Below are positions 7,678 to 18,648 of a stretch of DNA of 39,424 nucleotides, one piece after another. This stretch comes from Euzebyales bacterium (GTDB lineage Bacteria > Actinomycetota > Nitriliruptoria > Euzebyales > JAHELV01). The translations under genes were made by a program, and so were the position numbers. Within the stretch, counting starts at the first letter, position 1. Each line of letters begins with the position of its first letter. The notes beneath the pieces were generated by a model, which saw only the letters and a program-made list of their open reading frames with translations, ran no database searches and was not told where the DNA came from. The stretch lies in NCBI GenBank assembly GCA_035461305.1, contig DATHVN010000185.1:1-39424 (forward strand), in the 5' to 3' direction.

Positions 7678-8772
7678 TCAGCCGACGGTAACGGGCAATG
7701 GTGCCACGAAGAAGCGGGCCACACCCGTCAGCAGCGCCTCGGCGATGGTCGCCTGCAACGACGTATCCGTCAGCCGTGCCTCGTCCTCCGGTGAGCTGAG
7801 GAACCCGGGCTCGACGATTACGGCCGGCATCCGGGTCTCGCGCAGGATCGCCCACGTCATCGGATGGACCCGGCAGTCGGGAACCCAGTCGTGTGTCACC
7901 AGCTCGTCGAGCAGCGCGGTCGCCAGCCGCTGCCCCGACTCCGAGACGAACTGCTGGGTGCCGAAGTAGTAGGTGGCGGCTCCGCGGGCCGACGGGTTGC
8001 CAAGCGAGTTCGTGCTGATCGAGATGACCGCGTCGACGTCGAGCTCGTTGGCGAGTCGTGCACGCTCGCTTCCCGAGGGTGACGTGGTCGGCCCGCGTGA
8101 CAGGAACGCGCTGGCACCCGTCGCGTTCAGGCGGGCGGCCAGCTGGCTGGCGATCGCCCAGGTCACGTCCGCCTCCACCGTGCCGGCCGGCCCGGTCGCT
8201 CCGGGATCGGCGGGGCCGCGCGCGGGGTCGATCAGCAACCTGCGGCTGGTCAGGCTCTGCCCGATCCACTCGCGCAGCCGCTCCCGCTGGCGAGCGCGCA
8301 CGCCGGCGCCCGCGCGCTGGTGGTCGCGCCGCAGGCGCCGGAGCTGCTGGACCGTCGCGGGGCCCACCCGGCCGTCGACCGCCAGGCCCATGTTGCGCTG
8401 GAACTCCTCGACGGCCGCCTGGGTCGCACGGCCGAAGATACCGTCCTCGTTGCCGGCATCGAAGCCCAGCTGGTTCAGCCGCAGCTGGAGGTCCACGACG
8501 TCGTCGCCTCGCAGCGGCACGCGCGTCCGCAGCAGCAGGCGGTCACCCAGCGAATAGCCGGCCTCGACGAGGACCCGCCACGTCTCCTGGCTCACGATGC
8601 CGTCCGCAGGCAGGCCGCGCAGGCGCTGAAACTGACGAACGGCCTGTTCGGTCGGCTGATCGAACAAGCCGTTGACAGTCACATCGTGGGTGCGGATCCG
8701 CTGGAGCCGGCGCTGCAAGTCGGCCACCTCCGGACCATCGGCGCCGCGCCGAAGTCGTGAATCTGCGTCCAT
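7678..8772 (-). CDS. cwlM: CwlM-like cytoplasmic pseudo-amidase (two PG-binding domains, Amidase_3)
   Basis: The 364-residue protein has two peptidoglycan-binding type 1 domains (about 10-70 and 85-148) and an Amidase_3 domain (about 178-356). There is no signal peptide. Two of the three zinc ligands of the amidase family are gone: the His of DPGHGG is R185 (DPARGP) and the His of ISIHAN is S253 (ISISTN). The second-shell Glu E200 and the catalytic Glu E321 (VEPGFLS) remain. It is therefore unlikely to cut peptidoglycan. In mycobacteria CwlM is cytoplasmic, is phosphorylated by PknB and activates MurA. The same gene order (trxB-trxA-cwlM) supports a like regulatory role here, which is inference. 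Confidence 0.88.
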   Translation of the reverse strand: MDADSRLRRGADGPEVADLQRRLQRIRTHDVTVNGLFDQPTEQAVRQFQRLRGLPADGIVSQETWRVLVEAGYSLGDRLLLRTRVPLRGDDVVDLQLRLNQLGFDAGNEDGIFGRATQAAVEEFQRNMGLAVDGRVGPATVQQLRRLRRDHQRAGAGVRARQRERLREWIGQSLTSRRLLIDPARGPADPGATGPAGTVEADVTWAIASQLAARLNATGASAFLSRGPTTSPSGSERARLANELDVDAVISISTNSLGNPSARGAATYYFGTQQFVSESGQRLATALLDELVTHDWVPDCRVHPMTWAILRETRMPAVIVEPGFLSSPEDEARLTDTSLQATIAEALLTGVARFFVAPLPVTVG

Positions 8773-8839: not shown

Positions 8840-9163
8840 TCAGATGAACTCGGAGACCTCGCTCACGAGCTGCGCCTTGCCGCGGGCGCCGACGATGCGC
8901 TTGCGCTCGTCGCCCTCGGCGAAGACCATCAGCGTCGGGATCGACATGACGCGGTAGCGACGCGCGATGTCGGGGTTGTCGTCGACGTTGAGCTTGACGA
9001 CCTTCAAGCTTTCGGCGTGCTCGGCGGCGACCTCGTCGACGATCGGGCTCACCATCCGGCAGGGACCGCACCATTCCGCCCAGAAGTCCACCAGTACCGG
9101 CTTGTTCGAGTGCAGGACCTCGGTGTCCCAGCTGGTATCGGTCACGGCTCTGGTGTTGCTCAA
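8840..9163 (-). CDS. trxA: Thioredoxin
   Basis: A small cytoplasmic dithiol reductant, reduced by the TrxB encoded next to it. The 107-residue product is a complete thioredoxin fold with the redox motif WCGPC at about 32-36. The cis-Pro segment is SIPTLMVF, and DFWAEWCGPC follows the usual VLVDF strand. The start is a TTG at 9163: AAAGG lies 7 bases upstream and no in-frame ATG precedes the domain. An internal GTG (V7) is a weaker alternative. A GGAAT-N18-GTT promoter (9211-9236) precedes it, so it can be transcribed separately from trxB under thiol stress. The cwlM-like gene follows 67 bases downstream. Confidence 0.95.
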   Translation of the reverse strand: MSNTRAVTDTSWDTEVLHSNKPVLVDFWAEWCGPCRMVSPIVDEVAAEHAESLKVVKLNVDDNPDIARRYRVMSIPTLMVFAEGDERKRIVGARGKAQLVSEVSEFI

Positions 9164-9312: not shown

Positions 9313-10257
9313 TCACCAGTTGTGTGCGTCGATCCCCAGCCAGTGCTCGGCGTCGATCGCGGCCTTGCAGCCCATGCCGGCGGCCGTGACGGCCTGACGG
9401 TAGGTGTGGTCCACCACATCGCCCGCCGCGAACACCCCCGCTGCGCTGGTGCGCGTGCTCGGCGGATCGACGATGATGTAGCCTTGGTCGTCGAGCTCGA
9501 GCTGACCGGTGAACAGCCCCGTCTCCGGGTCGTGGCCGATCGCGACGAACAGGCCGTCGGTGGGCAGCTCCCTGTTCTCGCCGGTGACGGTGTCGGTCAG
9601 CTCCACCGCGGTCACCTTGTCGTCGCCGCGCACGTCGGTGACGACCGCGTTCCAGATGAAGTCGATCTTGTCGTTCGCGAACGCGCGATCCTGCATCACC
9701 TGGGAGGCGCGGAGCTGGTCGCGGCGGTGGACGACCGTGACCGAGCTGGCGAACTTGGTGAGGAACGTGGCCTCCTCCATCGCGGAGTCACCGCCGCCCA
9801 CGACCACGAGCTTGAGGTCGCGGAAGAAGAAACCGTCGCAGGTTGCGCAGCTCGACACGCCCTTGCCGATCAACCGCTGCTCGTTGGGCAGGTCGAGCCA
9901 GCGGGCCTTCGCCCCTGTCGAGACGATGACGGAACGCGCCCGGTGGGTGTCGCCGCCGACCTTGACATCGAACGGCGACCCGTTGGTGAGGTCGACCTGG
10001 TCGACGTCCTGCGACACGAACGTCGCTCCGAAGCGCTCGGCCTGCTTGCGCATGTCTGCCATGAGGGCCGGGCCCATCACGCCGTCGGGAAAGCCCGGGT
10101 AGTTCTCTACATCGGTGGTCAGCATGAGCTGGCCACCCGCGGCGCGGCCCTCGATCATGAGGGGTTGCAGCGCCGCCCGCGCGGTGTACAGCGCGGCGGT
10201 CAGCCCTGCCGGCCCGGATCCGATGATGATGACGTCGTGCACCACGTCGTCGCTCAT
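9313..10257 (-). CDS. trxB: Thioredoxin reductase (NADPH)
   Basis: An FAD enzyme that passes electrons from NADPH to thioredoxin. The 314-residue product is the normal low-molecular-weight bacterial length. The FAD-binding GSGPAG lies at about 13-18. The redox-active motif CATC is in [14 protein letters not shown], the NADPH motif is [10 protein letters not shown], and the C-terminal FAD contact is [11 protein letters not shown]. It is divergent from the zinc-binding membrane protein gene. It is followed by a 149-base gap and then trxA, and has its own GGAAT-N19-GTT promoter. The trxB-trxA-cwlM order matches Rv3913-Rv3915. Confidence 0.97.
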
Positions 10258-10969: not shown

Positions 10970-11845
10970 CTAGGGCTGCACGGCGATCGTGCGGATCGCG
11001 GCACACGTCCGTGGGTCGAGCAGCACGATCTGTGGGCTCGCACCCCGGACCATGACGGCAAGCGCCACGCGGCCGTCTTCGTCGACCAGGTCGACCGTCG
11101 CGGCCCTGAGCTCGCCCACGCACAGCCGGGCTGTCGGCAACCCGGCCTGATCGCGCAGTAGCCGCTCGCGCGCACGCAGGTTCCCGGGCGGATCGGCGCG
11201 CAACCGCTCCGCACGCGCAGCGATCTCTGCGTCACCCTCGACCCTGGCGACCGCCTGCTCGTCGGTGCGGGTGTCGTCGCCACGTACCGGTTCGCTGGCA
11301 GCGCCCTCGGCGGTCATGGCACCGGCGCCGCCACCAGCGGCGCGACCCGCAGCCTCGTCTGGCGCAGCCGCCTGCGGCTCCTCGGCCCCCGCGCCCGCCT
11401 GGTCCTCGAGCGAGACCTCACCACCCGCGGACTCCTCGGTGCCACCGCTGCCGAGCTGGCCGAGCACGGCGGCCGTGCCCAGCACGGTGACCAGGACGAT
11501 GGCGGCGGCGGTGGCCAGGACCGGCATCGCCCGCACCGACCAGCGACGAGGACGCCGAACCTCGGTCGTCACGTCGTGCTCGTCCGTATCAGGTCCCGCG
11601 CGCTCGGTCTGCAGCCGCTCGCGCAGCCGCGCACGGACATCGGCCGGCGCGGTCACCTCGTCGAGGCGCTGCAGCCGCGCCCGTGTCGCCGCGAGGGCGT
11701 CGAGGCGTGCCGCGAGCGCATCGTCCGAGGCCAGACGGCGCTCGATGCGGGCCGTGGTCACCTCGTCGGTGTCGCCGTCGAGGTAGGCGGCGAGCAGCGC
11801 GCCCTCGTCGCGGGCGTCGGGTCCGGTGGAGCTGTCGTCACGCAT
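10970..11845 (-). CDS. Membrane anti-sigma factor (RsmA-like), partner of the ECF sigma factor
   Basis: Probably holds the ECF sigma factor encoded just upstream inactive at the membrane. The 291 residues show a helical N-terminal region (about 14-85, with LLAAYLDGDTDE). A basic stretch and one membrane span at about 108-129 follow. Beyond it is a long Gly/Ala/Glu-rich extracytoplasmic linker, then a compact C-terminal domain with two Cys (ARLCVGEL and PRTCAAI). The zinc-binding HxxxCxxC of the ZAS family is absent, so it is not an RsrA-type redox sensor. Only 6 bases separate it from the sigma gene. Position matches Rv3912 (rsmA). The two extracytoplasmic Cys could form a disulfide. Confidence 0.8.
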   Translation of the reverse strand: MRDDSSTGPDARDEGALLAAYLDGDTDEVTTARIERRLASDDALAARLDALAATRARLQRLDEVTAPADVRARLRERLQTERAGPDTDEHDVTTEVRRPRRWSVRAMPVLATAAAIVLVTVLGTAAVLGQLGSGGTEESAGGEVSLEDQAGAGAEEPQAAAPDEAAGRAAGGGAGAMTAEGAASEPVRGDDTRTDEQAVARVEGDAEIAARAERLRADPPGNLRARERLLRDQAGLPTARLCVGELRAATVDLVDEDGRVALAVMVRGASPQIVLLDPRTCAAIRTIAVQP

Positions 11846-11851
11846 TGGCAG

Positions 11852-12442
11852 TCAGTCCTGCACAGTTGGAGGGTGATCGACGTCCCGTTGGTTCCGAACG
11901 GGTTCAAGAAGTTCGGCGAGGCGCGCGTGACCGCGGTGCACGCGCGACTTGGCGGTGCCGACAGCGACCTCCTGCGCGTGCGCGATGTCCGCATAGCTGG
12001 CGCCGACGACGTCGCGCAGCAGGACGGCATGGCGCTGGTCGGGATCAAGCTCTCCCAGTGCGTCCAGCAGATCCGGGCGCAGCTCCGCCGCGGCGAGGCG
12101 GTCGACGGTCGCCTGGTCGGAACCCTCCGGGCGCGTGCCTCCACGGTCGTCGTCCAGCGGCACGGTGCGCGGCTGCCGCGCGCGACGTCGGGCCAGGTCG
12201 TGGCACGCGTTCATGGTCACCCTGTACAGCCAGGTGGACAGCGCGGCGCGTCCGCGGAAGCTCGCCAGCCCGCGGTGGCACGCCAGGAAGGCGGCCTGGA
12301 ATGCGTCCTCCGCGTCGTGGGGGTCGCGGAAGTAGCGCAGGCAGATCGCATAGACGTGGTCGGCGTGACGGTCGACGATCGCGTCGAACGCCGCATCGTC
12401 GCCCGCCAGCGCGCGGGCGACGAGCTCGTGGTCGGCCGTCAT
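11852..12442 (-). CDS. sigM: ECF-family RNA polymerase sigma factor (SigM-like)
   Basis: Directs RNA polymerase to stress or cell-envelope promoters. The 196-residue product has region 2 at about 22-92, with the -10 recognition helix DAFQAAFLACHRGL and STWLYRVTMNACHDLARR. Region 4 at about 127-180 holds the HTH SYADIAHAQEVAVGTAKSRVHRG in two parts. It has no extra C-terminal domain. Its anti-sigma gene follows immediately. Gene order next to murJ, the kinase and trxB is that of SigM in M. tuberculosis, which gives the symbol; sequence alone shows only an ECF factor. No good Shine-Dalgarno was seen before the ATG. Confidence 0.88.
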   Translation of the reverse strand: MTADHELVARALAGDDAAFDAIVDRHADHVYAICLRYFRDPHDAEDAFQAAFLACHRGLASFRGRAALSTWLYRVTMNACHDLARRRARQPRTVPLDDDRGGTRPEGSDQATVDRLAAAELRPDLLDALGELDPDQRHAVLLRDVVGASYADIAHAQEVAVGTAKSRVHRGHARLAELLEPVRNQRDVDHPPTVQD

Positions 12443-12626: not shown

Positions 12627-14228
12627 TCACGAGCGGATCCCCTCGATCGAGACCTCGGAGAACGCGGCGCTGTAGCCGCGGTCGTAGTCGACAAGCGGCG
12701 CGATGAGCCAGATCATCAGGTACCGCGTCTCGATCTGCTCCTTCTCGAACGTGATCACGGGCCGCCTGTCGGAGCGGCGCACGGAGCCGACGGTGCGCCA
12801 CTCGTCGGGCGCTGCCGTCCTGTCGTCGGACACCCGGATGTCGTAGCTGATGCCGGGGCTGGGTGTCTCGAGCGTCAGCGCGGTCGGCTGGACCTTCTCG
12901 CCGAGGTCGATGATGATGCCCAGCCCGTCCTTGAGGTTGCCGAAGTCGGGTGAGCTGTAGGAGTCGGTGCGCCAGCGCGTCTCGGGGTCGCGGTCCATCA
13001 TGTCGCCGAGCAGGTCGTCGTGCTCGGTCGGTGGCAGGCCCTCGGGGTCGACGGTCGACAGGTCCTGGATCGCCAGCTGCTGTGGTGCGACCGCCGCCGG
13101 GGTCGCCTCGTTGCCACTCACGATCAGCGAGGGCACGCCGCGGATCTCGAACACGCCGGTCGCCACGCCGACGGCGATCAGCAGCGCCGACACCACCAGC
13201 AGACCCAGCGCTGACGCGAGCCACCGACCCTCGCTGCGCAGGAACGACCGGCTGTTGATGGGCTGCGAGACGTACGCGGCCTCGTCGGCGTCCGGGAGCG
13301 TCTCGCCCCGCACGAGCATCTGGGTCGTCTCGGTCAGGACTTCGTCGTCGCGTGCCCACGGCTCGAGTGCCTCGGCGAACGCGCGGCAGTTCGGATGGCG
13401 GTCCGACGGGTCGCGGGCGAGCGCCCGCATGACGACGTCGTCGAGCTCCTTGGGCATGTCGGCACGCAGCGCACGCAGCGGCAGCGGCTCGTGGTCCAGC
13501 CGTTGTGCGGCGATCGCCACCGTCGACGAGGCGGAGAACGGCTGCTGGCCGCTCAGCGCCTCGTAGAGGACGCAGCCCAGGGAGTACTGGTCGGCGCGGC
13601 CGTCCACGGGCCTGTCCTCGACCTGCTCCGGCGCCACGTAGGCGGCCGTGCCGAGCACCATGCCGGTCTTGGTGAGCTCGCTGCGGGAGTGCTCGACCTT
13701 GACGATGCCGAAGTCGCCCATCTTCACCGCGCCCTCCTGCCCCAGCAGGATGTTGGCGGGCTTCACGTCGCGGTGGACCAGGCCCCGCTCGTGGGCGAAG
13801 TCGAGGGCGAAGGCGACGCGCATGCCGACGCTGGCGGCGAGGCCCGGGTCGAGCCGGCCGTACTGCACCATGACCTCGCGCAGGGTCACCCCCTGGACGA
13901 ACTCCATGACGAGGTAGACCCAGTCGCCGTCGCGTCCCGTGTCGTAGATGCCGACGATCCCCGGGTGGGCGAGCTTGGCCGCCGCGACCGCCTCGCGCCG
14001 GAAACGCTCGCGGAAGTCGCGGTCGTTCGACAGGTGCTTGTGCAGGAGCTTGACCGCGACGGTGCGCGCCAGCTTCTCGTCGTGTGCCCGCCACACGGTG
14101 GCCATGCCACCGATCGCGATGCGTTCCTCGAGCAGGTAGCGGTCGCTGAGCACCCTCGGTGGGAGCGAGGGGTCAGGCTCCGGACCTCCACCGGTGAGGA
14201 CACCGGTGCGCTCGACGTCGTCGCTCAT
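12627..14228 (-). CDS. Membrane Ser/Thr protein kinase with discoidin-like ectodomain
   Basis: The 533-residue protein starts at ATG 14228 (MSDDVERTG). An N-terminal kinase domain spans about 30-292. It has a glycine loop (GGMATVW), ATP-binding K60 (VAVK), catalytic H152-R153-D154 and N159, the D172-F173-G174 metal site and APE at 199-201, so it looks catalytically complete. A juxtamembrane region follows, then one membrane span at about 338-360. The outside part, about 385-533, has a jelly-roll, F5/8 type C-like pattern ([25 protein letters not shown]). The same domains, with an inactive kinase, form the C-terminal half of MviN (Rv3910) in M. tuberculosis. Here they are a separate gene next to murJ. 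Targets may include MurJ or the CwlM-like protein, which is inference. Confidence 0.9.
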
Positions 14229-14389
14229 GTCACCGCACGTACCTGACGTGCGGGCGACGGGCCGGGCTCCAGGGGGTCGTGGAACGCACCGCCCCTGAGT
14301 GGTTCGGGCCTCGACCCTTGCTGAACGCCCGACTCCATTCGGTTGCTCACTCCAGAACGCCGGACCCGTGAGGGCTGAACCAGTGACCG

Positions 14390-14417
14390 AGTGTACTTCG
14401 CCCCTCAGCGGTGCAAA
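14390..14417 (-). promoter_or_regulatory. Candidate promoter for the kinase gene
   Basis: On the minus strand TACACT (14395-14390) is preceded, after 16 bases, by TTTGCA (14417-14412). It would give a leader of about 155 bases before the kinase ATG. This is a plausible vegetative promoter, but seen from sequence only. Confidence 0.35.
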
Positions 14418-14665
14418 GACCGTCCTGGTCTGCGCGACCCCGTTCGTCCCGTGCGACCAGCACCTGCGCGGCGATGCGCCGGAGCGATCTGCCGTCGCCC
14501 TGGGTCGCGTCGGTGGGTCACAGCCCGGTCGGGTCGAGCGGCGCGCGCTGGGTGATGAACGACCGCGCTGACGTCGAAGGCCATGAGGGTGAGGAGGACG
14601 ATGAAGATCCTCATGCGCGCGGCGATGGTGAGCCGTGCGGCGCCCCGCTCGCTCGCGAGGTTCAT
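14405..14665 (-). CDS. Hypothetical small protein between murJ and the kinase gene
   Basis: The 548 bases between murJ and the kinase gene hold one open frame with some support. The start is ATG 14665 with GGAG 6 bases upstream, giving 86 residues. There is a single hydrophobic stretch (RIFIVLLTLMAFDVSAVV, about residues 18-35), preceded by basic residues, and then a long Arg/His/Pro-rich tail with no recognisable domain. The tail looks like noise of GC-rich DNA, so the frame may be spurious or a decayed membrane protein. Nothing else was seen in the gap apart from a kinase promoter. Confidence 0.3.
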   Translation of the reverse strand: MNLASERGAARLTIAARMRIFIVLLTLMAFDVSAVVHHPARAARPDRAVTHRRDPGRRQIAPAHRRAGAGRTGRTGSRRPGRSLHR

Positions 14666-14776
14666 GGTCGACTCCACACGCGGTCCGTGGGATGGTGGAG
14701 CGCCTGTCGGCCGTGTGGGCGGGCGCCTCAGCGCAGGCGCATGGGCCGGGGCGGCGAGCCGTCCCACCGGTGCCGG

Positions 14777-16474
14777 TCAGCGGCGCAGCACCCGCCCCAG
14801 CTGCGCGATCTCGGGCAGGCGCAGCGCGGTTGCGACGGCCACGTAGGTCAGACCGACCGCGGCAGCGGTCAGCAGGAGCAGCACGAGCAGTGGCTGTGCT
14901 CCGAGAACGACGCGCACGACGATGCCGGCGATCGCCGCCGTCGTGCCCGCGGTGCCGGTGCGGAGCATCCAACCGCCGCCGACCCTCACGCGGATGTCGG
15001 CGACGCGCGCGAGGTGACGGCGGAGCAGGCCGTACTCCAGCCAGGACGTCATGCCCGCCGCGAGCGTGAGCCCCACCGCGCCGAGCCGCAGGAACGTGGT
15101 CTGGTCGGTCGCCCGCGCGTCGATCGGCAGCGGGGCGAAGGCCGGCAGCGACCCTCGCACGACGACGCCGGCATTGGTCAGCGCGAGACGGTCGAACTGG
15201 AGCATCAGTACCGCGCCGAGCGCCGCAGCTACCACGACGCGGACGATGGCGTACCGGGTGGGCGACCTCGTGTCGCCGGCCGCGTAGAGCGCCGATTGGA
15301 GCAGGCGTGACGACGTGTTCGACAGGAGGCCCACCGTGGAGCCCAGCAGCACGAGCCAGACCTGCTGCGCGGCGAGCGGCGTCAGGACGGTGGCGTAGAC
15401 CAGGTCGCCGAGCACGACGAATGCGGCGATCGTCGGTATCACGTAGAACGCGATGCGGGCGAGCATCGGGTGCAGCCGCCCTGCGACCCTCCCATTCTCG
15501 GCCTCCTGCAGGGACGACAGGGCGGGCAGCTCCGAGGCCGCCACGCTCATCCCGAACAGGCTGACCGGCAGCAGCGCGAGCCGTGTCGCGTACTCGACGG
15601 CGGCTACGGCGCCGGCGGCCAGCAGGCTCGCAAGCGCGATGTCGACGTAGATCATCAGTTGCACGACACCGCGCCCGGTCACGACCGGCCAGAACGACCG
15701 CAGGGTTCTGCGGACCCCGGAGCGGCTCGTGTCCAGCGAGATCCGCAGAGCGGGGTTGGAGCGCACGACGGCAGGGACCTGGACGGCGAACTGCAGCAGG
15801 CCACCGACGAGCGCACCCCAGGCCAGCGCGATCGCCAGCTGCGCCAGCTCGGCGTCGGACGCCTCCGTCGAGGCGATGCCGCCATCGAGCAGGACAGCGG
15901 CGGCGGCGACGAGGACGGCGATCTGGGTGACGTTCCAGATCACCGGCGCCACGTAGGACAGAAAGAACCTGCGGTGGCTGTTGAGCACGCCGAGGCACCA
16001 CGCCGACAGCACCAGGAACCCGACGCCGGGGAACAGGATCCGGGTCAGGGTGACCGTGAGCTCCAGACGCTGGCCGGTGAAGCCGATGGCGACGAGACGC
16101 GTGATCGGCTCCGCCAACGCGACACCCAGCAGCGCGAGGAGACCGGTCAACGCCGTCAGCAGACCCGCGATCGCGCCGGCGACGAGACCGGCCTCCTCGT
16201 AGCGGCGCTGCGCGAGCAGGCGGCTGTAGACCGGGATGAACGAGGCTGACAGCACCCCTTCACCCAGAAGGTTCTGGAGCAGGTTCGGGATGCGCATCGC
16301 GGCCTGCAACGCGTCGGCGACCGGGCTGACGCCGAAGTACCTGGCGACCGCGGCGGTGCGCGCGAGCCCGCTCACCCGCGACAGGAGGATGCCGGCGGCG
16401 ACGAGTGCAGAGTTCCGCGAGGAACTGGGATCGTCCGGGAGCTCGGTCTCGAGGGTGTGCTCTGGACGGTTCAC
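14777..16474 (-). CDS. murJ: Lipid II flippase MurJ (MviN family)
   Basis: Moves lipid II across the membrane for peptidoglycan synthesis. The start chosen is GTG 16474 (VNRPEHTLE), giving 565 residues; no strong Shine-Dalgarno is visible and the long in-frame extension upstream has no MurJ features. The MOP-fold N terminus is clear: LLSRVSGLARTAAVARYFG, then ADALQAAMRIPNLLQNLLGEG and FIPVYSRLL. About 14 membrane spans follow, and the product ends shortly after the last span. The cytoplasmic pseudokinase and outer domain carried by mycobacterial MviN are absent. They are replaced by the separate kinase gene downstream. The divergent cca gene is the usual actinobacterial neighbour. Confidence 0.93.
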   Translation of the reverse strand: MNRPEHTLETELPDDPSSSRNSALVAAGILLSRVSGLARTAAVARYFGVSPVADALQAAMRIPNLLQNLLGEGVLSASFIPVYSRLLAQRRYEEAGLVAGAIAGLLTALTGLLALLGVALAEPITRLVAIGFTGQRLELTVTLTRILFPGVGFLVLSAWCLGVLNSHRRFFLSYVAPVIWNVTQIAVLVAAAAVLLDGGIASTEASDAELAQLAIALAWGALVGGLLQFAVQVPAVVRSNPALRISLDTSRSGVRRTLRSFWPVVTGRGVVQLMIYVDIALASLLAAGAVAAVEYATRLALLPVSLFGMSVAASELPALSSLQEAENGRVAGRLHPMLARIAFYVIPTIAAFVVLGDLVYATVLTPLAAQQVWLVLLGSTVGLLSNTSSRLLQSALYAAGDTRSPTRYAIVRVVVAAALGAVLMLQFDRLALTNAGVVVRGSLPAFAPLPIDARATDQTTFLRLGAVGLTLAAGMTSWLEYGLLRRHLARVADIRVRVGGGWMLRTGTAGTTAAIAGIVVRVVLGAQPLLVLLLLTAAAVGLTYVAVATALRLPEIAQLGRVLRR

Positions 16475-17235: not shown

Positions 17236-18648
17236 ATGCCCGACACCGACATCCAGCAGCGTCAGCTCGCTGAGCTCGTCGCGATCTACCCCGCGGCCGA
17301 CGAGCTCGCCGAACGCTTCGCCGCGGCCGGCCACGAGCTGTACCTCGTGGGCGGCACCGTGCGGGACACGCTGCTGCACGGGCGCGCCGACGGCGACCTG
17401 GACCTGGCGACCACGGCGCGCCCGGCCGAGACGGAGCGCCTGCTGCAGGGCTGGGTGGATCACCTGTGGCTGACCGGCGCGCGGTTCGGCACGGTCAGCG
17501 CGACGAGGGGCGACGACACGTTCGAGGTGACGACGCTGCGGTCCGACCGCTACGAGCCGGGATCGCGACACCCGGACGTGTCGTTCGGCGACGACATCGA
17601 GACGGACCTGTCTCGCCGAGACTTCACGTGCAACGCCATGGCCGTGGACCTGCGGCGGCGCGCGTTCGTCGATCCGTTCGGTGGACTCGCCGACCTGCAC
17701 CGGCGTGTGCTGCGTACGCCGCTGCCCGCCGAGACCAGCTTCGGCGACGACCCCCTGCGCATGGTCCGCCTGGCACGGTTCGCCGCGGTGCTCGACGCCG
17801 TGGTCGATGACGACGCACGACGGGCGGCGACGACCATGGCGGGCGAGCTGGCGATCATCAGCCGCGAGCGCATCCGCGTTGAGCTCAGCAAGCTGATCGT
17901 CGCGCCGGCCGTTACCCGTGGGCTGGACCTGCTGTGCGACACGGGGCTGGCCGACCAGTTTCTGCCGGAGCTGCCGGCGCTGAAGATGCAGCGCGATCCG
18001 GCGCACCACCACAAGGACGTCTACGTCCACACGCTGGCGGTCGTGGAGGGCTGCCCCGCCGACGACCTGGTCCTGCGGCTCGCCGGCCTGCTGCACGACA
18101 TCGGTAAGCCCGCGACCCGTCGCTTCGAGTCGGGGGGCCGGGTCACCTTCCATCACCACGAGGTGGTGGGTGCGCGCATGGCCCGTGCGCGACTGACCGA
18201 GCTGCGCTACCCGAAGAAGGTGGTCGAGCAGGTCGCGCAGCTGGTGGCGCTCCACCTGCGGTTCCACGGCTACCGCGACCAGGGCTGGACCGACTCGGCG
18301 GTGCGCCGGTACGTGCGGGATGCGGGGACGCCCGAGCAACTCCGGCGCCTGAACCTGCTGACCCGTGCCGACGTGACGACGCAGAACCAGCGCAGGACCC
18401 GAGCGCTGCAGCGGGCGATGGACGAGCTCGAGGAGCGGATCGAGCAGCTCCAGCGCGAGGAGGAGCTCGCAGCGATCCGGCCGCCGTTGGACGGCCACCA
18501 GATCATGGAGCATCTCGGCATCGGCCCCGGCCCCAAGGTGGGGCGGGCCTACCGCCACCTACTGGAGGCCCGCATCGCCGACGGGCCGATGACGGCCGAC
18601 GAGGGCTACGCGCTGCTCGACGCGTGGGCTGCCGAGCAGGAGGACTGA
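17236..18648 (+). CDS. cca: CCA-adding tRNA nucleotidyltransferase (class II, with HD domain)
   Basis: Adds or repairs the 3' CCA of tRNAs. The 470-residue product begins with the nucleotidyltransferase head: LYLVGGTVRDTLLHGRADGD, with the catalytic DxD in GDLDLAT (about 53-59), then RRDFTCNAMAVD and the nucleotide-selecting DPLRMVRLARFAA helix. An HD domain follows around DIVH-like LAGLLHDIGKPATR (about 275-290) and FHHHEVVGARMA. The C-terminal region carries a coiled segment ELEERIEQLQREEELAA and PPLDGHQIMEHLGIGPGP. Length and order match PcnA (Rv3907c) of M. tuberculosis. The ATG follows a -10 element with no ribosome-binding site. Confidence 0.95.
   Translation: MPDTDIQQRQLAELVAIYPAADELAERFAAAGHELYLVGGTVRDTLLHGRADGDLDLATTARPAETERLLQGWVDHLWLTGARFGTVSATRGDDTFEVTTLRSDRYEPGSRHPDVSFGDDIETDLSRRDFTCNAMAVDLRRRAFVDPFGGLADLHRRVLRTPLPAETSFGDDPLRMVRLARFAAVLDAVVDDDARRAATTMAGELAIISRERIRVELSKLIVAPAVTRGLDLLCDTGLADQFLPELPALKMQRDPAHHHKDVYVHTLAVVEGCPADDLVLRLAGLLHDIGKPATRRFESGGRVTFHHHEVVGARMARARLTELRYPKKVVEQVAQLVALHLRFHGYRDQGWTDSAVRRYVRDAGTPEQLRRLNLLTRADVTTQNQRRTRALQRAMDELEERIEQLQREEELAAIRPPLDGHQIMEHLGIGPGPKVGRAYRHLLEARIADGPMTADEGYALLDAWAAEQED

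Follow-up and report, generated by a model that had tools for sequence, protein, structure and literature searches.

A separate membrane kinase with intact catalytic motifs beside murJ in a Euzebyales bacterium, matching the C-terminal half of MviN from mycobacteria

We analysed a 39,424-nucleotide stretch of the genome of a Euzebyales bacterium (contig DATHVN010000185.1 of assembly GCA_035461305.1, hereafter the window), in which a gene for the lipid II flippase MurJ is followed by a separate gene for a transmembrane Ser/Thr kinase. Homology, domain order and synteny show that the kinase is the equivalent of the C-terminal half of MviN (Rv3910), the fused mycobacterial protein. The best explanation of the locus as a whole, to which we assign a probability of roughly 0.55, is that this protein is an intact counterpart of the MviN tail and serves as a wall-control receptor kinase that tunes lipid II export. 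As an intact membrane kinase encoded separately beside murJ, it appears to represent the ancestral version of a cell-wall control device that is already known. What the MviN pseudokinase and its outer domain do is still under debate; since the intact counterpart shares this outer domain and the putative docking segment, the ancestral function becomes directly testable, namely the ligand of the outer domain, self-marking by the kinase, and the kinase substrates. Feature coordinates are collected in Table 1.

Family models identify the product of the first gene as MurJ: the TIGR01695 equivalog model scored 245.7 bits, above its curated cut-off of 235.55, and PF03023 scored 235 bits (cut-off 27.4). 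The protein stops shortly past its last membrane helix and carries no kinase-like extension; a hydropathy scan did not separate the individual helices one by one (14 are expected of MurJ). No single reading frame of the MviN type, joining MurJ to a kinase-like domain, was found in the window, which holds two genes with a non-coding gap of ~550 bp between them. GC content by codon position showed two coding blocks, each in a frame of its own, and no coding signal from ~14,700 to ~14,250. Three congeneric genomes carry the same two separate genes, and the split is therefore not a frameshift or assembly error cutting a fused gene, an explanation that the GC-frame pattern also rules out. The separation of the genes, with the flippase ending past its membrane spans, had been proposed in an earlier reading of the window made without database searches (the sequence-only reading), to which we add the orientation: murJ and the kinase gene are both encoded on the minus strand. 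A second MurJ-family gene is present in the same genome (G000:C155:13700-15025, minus strand; L003); it fits the general TIGR01695 model better than the window copy does and shares ~31% identity with it over 290 residues.

By its motifs, the product of the second gene is a Hanks-type Ser/Thr kinase with the full catalytic set: a glycine loop (residues 36-47), K60, E79, HRD (152-154), N159, DFG (172-174) and APE (199-201). K60, HRD and DFG stand at the positions given by the sequence-only reading, which had predicted an active-type kinase unlike the dead mycobacterial one. Across 28 orthologues from the class, K60, E79, HRD, N159 and DFG were invariant, and the full motif set was invariant or nearly so. 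Since 28 of 28 orthologues keep every catalytic residue, selection for catalysis is implied.

Single-sequence searches with the outer domain of the kinase returned weak F5/8C matches at best and, against the PDB, nothing significant, so that profile and fold searches were needed. An alignment of 24 outer-domain sequences matched the NedA-like, F5/8C and AftD carbohydrate-binding families and, against the PDB, gave weak matches to CBM32-type domains; PF22633 reached 20.4 bits, under the Pfam gathering score of 27.8. An AlphaFold2 model of the domain had a mean pLDDT of 94.8, and Foldseek with this model retrieved CBM32 modules (E ~1e-7, probability 1.00). The model thus places the domain in the F5/8C-CBM32 jelly-roll fold, in agreement with the discoidin-like ectodomain suggested earlier. 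It shares the fold and a D-x-D-x-x-T-x-W motif with CBM32/F5-8C modules, but differs from them in being the ectodomain of a receptor kinase and in scoring under the curated Pfam cut-off. The same outer domain is also found on other intact kinases encoded outside the murJ-sigM cluster (L190, L192-L196, L198, L199 and L203, as well as L121, L125, L132, L134, L138-L140, L146, L149 and L150); the domain is therefore a more general kinase ectodomain in the phylum.

The link to MviN comes from the same domain. The outer-domain profile picks up the C-terminus of fused mycobacterial MviN (e.g., E 3e-22 in genome G076), and an hhalign comparison of the window-type and MviN outer domains gave P 99.8 and E 1.7e-30 over 141 columns, so that the key check of the sequence-only reading, a match of residues 385-533 to the MviN outer domain, came out in its favour. 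At E ~1e-118, the pseudokinase of the fused protein taken for comparison matches PDB entries 3OTV, 3OUK, 3OUN and 3UQC; this is the pseudokinase of M. tuberculosis MviN, and the comparison protein is MviN itself. The window and MviN have the same domain series, the same chromosomal slot, homologous outer domains and, putatively, a docking-like juxtamembrane Thr. They differ in that MviN is one gene and the window has two, in that MviN lacks the catalytic Lys, the HRD Asp and the DFG Asp, all of which the window kinase keeps, and in the absence from the window of the long linker between MurJ and kinase.

The gene order pcnA..murJ-[kinase]-sigM-trxB-trxA-cwlM is conserved phylum-wide, with the kinase inside the cluster in 20 class loci and in ~25 loci of the same type from other families. 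Fused mycobacterial loci (L141, L334) show the order fused gene, sigma factor, trxB, trxA, cwlM, and we take the order of M. tuberculosis Rv3907c-Rv3915 to be the same as that of the window cluster.

This conservation bears on the possibility that the gene is an ordinary PknB-type paralogue lying near murJ by chance. The nearest PDB kinase domain by sequence is indeed that of PknB, related genomes yield many kinase matches, and kinases with the same outer domain sit elsewhere too. However, the PASTA kinase PknB model NF033483 scored 358.4 bits against a cut-off of 450 and covered residues 24-302 only; the window kinase has no PASTA domain; and a PASTA PknB is encoded elsewhere in the genome (G000:C208), as in all 25 genomes tested. 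In the kinase tree, the locus kinases stand apart from 20 of 22 PASTA PknBs, including the genome's own, with moderate support for the split (87/52 to 89/87), and one PknB (from family f11) groups among the class kinases. The score and the tree placement lead us to reject a PknB paralogue, and together with the phylum-wide synteny and the homology to the MviN C-terminus they largely refute the chance-paralogue explanation, which we regard as very improbable. The sequence-only reading had named a common PknB-type kinase with no link to murJ gene order as the outcome that would speak against it; the conserved synteny points the other way. The window kinase resembles the PASTA kinases PknB and Stk1 in being a Hanks-type kinase with one span, an outer sensor, a cell-wall context and a PknB-like kinase domain, but it bears a CBM32-like outer domain in place of PASTA repeats and falls in a separate clade.

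A survey of loci across the phylum yielded a graded series, from live kinase through half-dead kinase and dead scaffold to fused scaffold. Its named genomes came from a contig profile search with the kinase alignment, whose own matches were nearly all PknB-type kinases. The split form occurs widely in the phylum. The locus kinase is intact in all class members, in families f6, f27 and f43, in one f44 genome and in Ferrithrix (Acidimicrobiia), while that of f40 has HGD in place of HRD. Half-degraded kinases occur in two f44 genomes (L120, L126) and in f17 (L127, L128): the catalytic Asp is lost (HRN, HGS, HGN) and DFG reads DFA or DFS, but the Lys and the Asp of DFG remain in place; these proteins could be ATP-binding pseudokinases. 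In all named genomes of Actinomycetes type in which a kinase domain could be recognised, the locus kinase is dead. It is mostly a separate gene in Streptomyces, Streptosporangium, Nonomuraea, Amycolatopsis, Kutzneria, Paractinoplanes, Cellulomonas, Terrabacter, Phycicoccus and others, and fused in Mycobacterium, Nocardia, Rhodococcus, Williamsia and Corynebacterium. All fused forms have lost the catalytic residues.

Fused forms also exist outside the mycolata. MurJ, pseudokinase and outer domain share one frame in Propionicimonas (L325, 2919-6353, plus strand) and Micropruina (L323, 3-5897, plus strand); in Actinomyces (L327, 4074-7223, minus strand), one frame holds MurJ and the outer domain, and a kinase-like domain was not recognised in it. 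In the outer-domain tree, Propionicimonas and Micropruina form a group (99/94) apart from the mycolata and Pseudonocardiaceae (100/100), a group that includes the split forms of Amycolatopsis, Kutzneria and Halopolyspora. At least two fusions therefore took place, one in the mycolata and one in the Propionibacteriaceae. The outer-domain tree alone is poorly resolved, and we claim no order of deep splits from it. The f44 clade (99/91) holds both intact and degraded members; catalysis was therefore probably lost more than once. By parsimony, the intact separate kinase would be ancestral, and the dead kinase fused to MurJ would be a derived state. The sequence-only reading had described the locus as a split version of MviN; the two-gene state stands, but the direction appears to be the reverse.

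A "protein kinase family protein" gene was reported in 2023 as often lying downstream of mviN orthologues without the extension (PMC10166564, S6 Fig legend), and the separate gene beside a short mviN is thus known. The window resembles this Streptomyces-type arrangement in that the kinase has its own gene downstream of murJ and bears the same outer domain; it differs in that the kinase is dead in Streptomyces and the other Actinomycetes-type genomes checked and intact in the window. The same paper states that the MviN extension occurs only in arabinogalactan bearers (PMC10166564), a restriction not upheld by the fused forms with pseudokinase in Propionicimonas and Micropruina; the Actinomyces frame runs counter to it as well. 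In the literature searched, which took in few subscription papers, we found no statement saying which of these kinases keep their catalytic residues, describing intermediate states, or reporting fusions in other groups.

PknB phosphorylates M. tuberculosis MviN on Thr947, after which FhaA binds (PMC10166564; PMC6180346). Just past the kinase domain, a T-x-x-[ILVM] motif occurs in 27 of 40 split orthologues, where shuffling each segment gives an expectation of 11.0, relatedness not being removed. In the PDB chain of MviN, the motif aligns with a DRTEL[IV] segment past the mycobacterial pseudokinase; the Thr of this segment would by its numbering be Thr947 (residue 960 in the open frame of L334, where extra residues are present at the N-terminus). 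The window motif would then sit at the position of Thr947 and is a putative FhaA docking site. The FhaA family was found in the window's genome and in all 20 other genomes tested; the genome's own FhaA has an FHA domain with GR..SRRHA..NG and lies on the same contig as PknB. The docking-like Thr is kept in both intact and dead kinases, and catalysis has been lost repeatedly with the gene retained, as would be expected if catalysis were secondary and the protein served, like MviN, mainly as a docking scaffold that PknB phosphorylates in trans. The retention of every catalytic residue throughout the class orthologues makes this improbable for the window kinase.

For the preferred explanation, a receptor kinase tuning lipid II export, we infer kinase activity, glycan sensing, self-marking, FhaA recruitment and an influence on lipid II export. 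The CBM32-like outer domain would bind an envelope glycan or glycopolymer, and binding would control dimerisation and autophosphorylation of the kinase, including the juxtamembrane T-x-x-hydrophobic Thr. The phospho-Thr would recruit FhaA, which has been suggested to inhibit wall synthesis and also to promote it (PMC11898655), and the FhaA complex would tune lipid II export and wall synthesis jointly with a CwlM-like pseudo-amidase.

Several points weigh against this explanation. murJ is missing from the cluster in 11 of 20 class loci, with the kinase staying beside sigM or the trx genes, and congeners space kinase and sigM by ~20 bp but kinase and murJ by 200-740 bp; together, these features favour an output other than MurJ. 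The window lacks both the linker by which mycobacterial MurJ binds CwlM and the phosphorylated tail of CwlM. The shuffle test for the juxtamembrane motif ignores relatedness, the polarity from intact to dead rests on parsimony, and kinase activity, ligand and substrate are all predictions from genes. The sequence-only reading suggested that the kinase senses wall fragments and acts on the flippase; neither is supported here, and both stay conjectural, many relatives keeping the kinase beside sigM with no murJ there. Of the class genomes lacking murJ at the locus, those that were checked encode a MurJ elsewhere (e.g., L202). Kinase-(sigM)-trxB clusters without murJ were seen at L042-L048, L050-L053, L122, L129 and L151-L153, again with murJ elsewhere in those of the genomes that were checked.

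The short spacing to sigM, the retention of sigM or trx neighbours where murJ has left, and a probable anti-sigma factor directly downstream of sigM would all suit an envelope-stress sensor whose output is mainly the SigM/anti-sigma pair, with the redox genes, and to which murJ is a mere neighbour. Against this, many families also have the kinase next to murJ, an adjacency that fusion has fixed on two or more occasions, and the survey contained no sigM-kinase fusion. We consider such a sensor rather unlikely.

On the evolutionary side, flippase and kinase as separate proteins would be the older state, judging from the survey and the trees, and in Actinomycetes-type lineages the kinase would have lost its catalytic residues and later been fused to MurJ at least twice. 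Mycobacteria would have kept the docking Thr, and since their MviN kinase is dead, PknB would write the mark. Tentatively, the MviN checkpoint may have begun as a self-sufficient glycan-sensing receptor kinase that wrote its own FHA-docking mark, a state kept in the window; with the death of the kinase in Actinomycetes-type lineages, PknB would have taken over the mark and the dead receptor been joined to MurJ more than once.

Table 1. Features of the murJ-kinase cluster in the window (residue numbers refer to the kinase).
Feature	Position	Strand	Remarks
murJ, lipid II flippase	14777..16474	-	565 aa, GTG start, tail RLPEIAQLGRVLRR
Non-coding gap between murJ and kinase gene	14250..14700	.	GC-frame without codon-position signal; stops
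Separate transmembrane Ser/Thr kinase gene	12627..14228	-	533 aa, ATG start
Kinase domain, residues 33-278	13395..14132	-	PF00069, E 5.5e-48
Start of cytoplasmic juxtamembrane segment, residues ~288-317	13278..13367	-	LTETTQML; T-x-x-[ILVM] motif
Single membrane span, residues 337-355	13164..13220	-	Hydropathy scan
Outer domain, residues 385-533	12630..13076	-	F5/8C-CBM32 jelly roll (predicted)
ECF sigma factor	11852..12442	-	At M. tuberculosis sigM position
Probable anti-sigma factor	10970..11845	-	291 aa; Rv3912 position; cytoplasmic N-terminus, one apparent span
trxB, thioredoxin reductase	9313..10257	-	
trxA, thioredoxin	8840..9163	-	
cwlM-like protein	7678..8772	-	Two PG_binding_1 and Amidase_3
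pcnA (CCA-adding/poly A polymerase family)	17236..18648	+	Upstream border of conserved cluster

Among the neighbouring genes, the 291-aa protein had no match in a Pfam search, and its assignment as a probable anti-sigma factor follows from its position and topology. The CwlM-like protein has its zinc-ligand histidines replaced (DPARG against DPGHG, and SISTN against SIHLN in others), as in mycobacterial CwlM. It is probably a pseudo-amidase as in mycobacteria and therefore probably a regulator too, but it lacks the C-terminal tail of the mycobacterial protein, and the CwlM switch therefore cannot be identical. The Amidase_3 domain reads DPARGPADPG and SISTNS in the window, and f6 and some other relatives keep DPGHGG.

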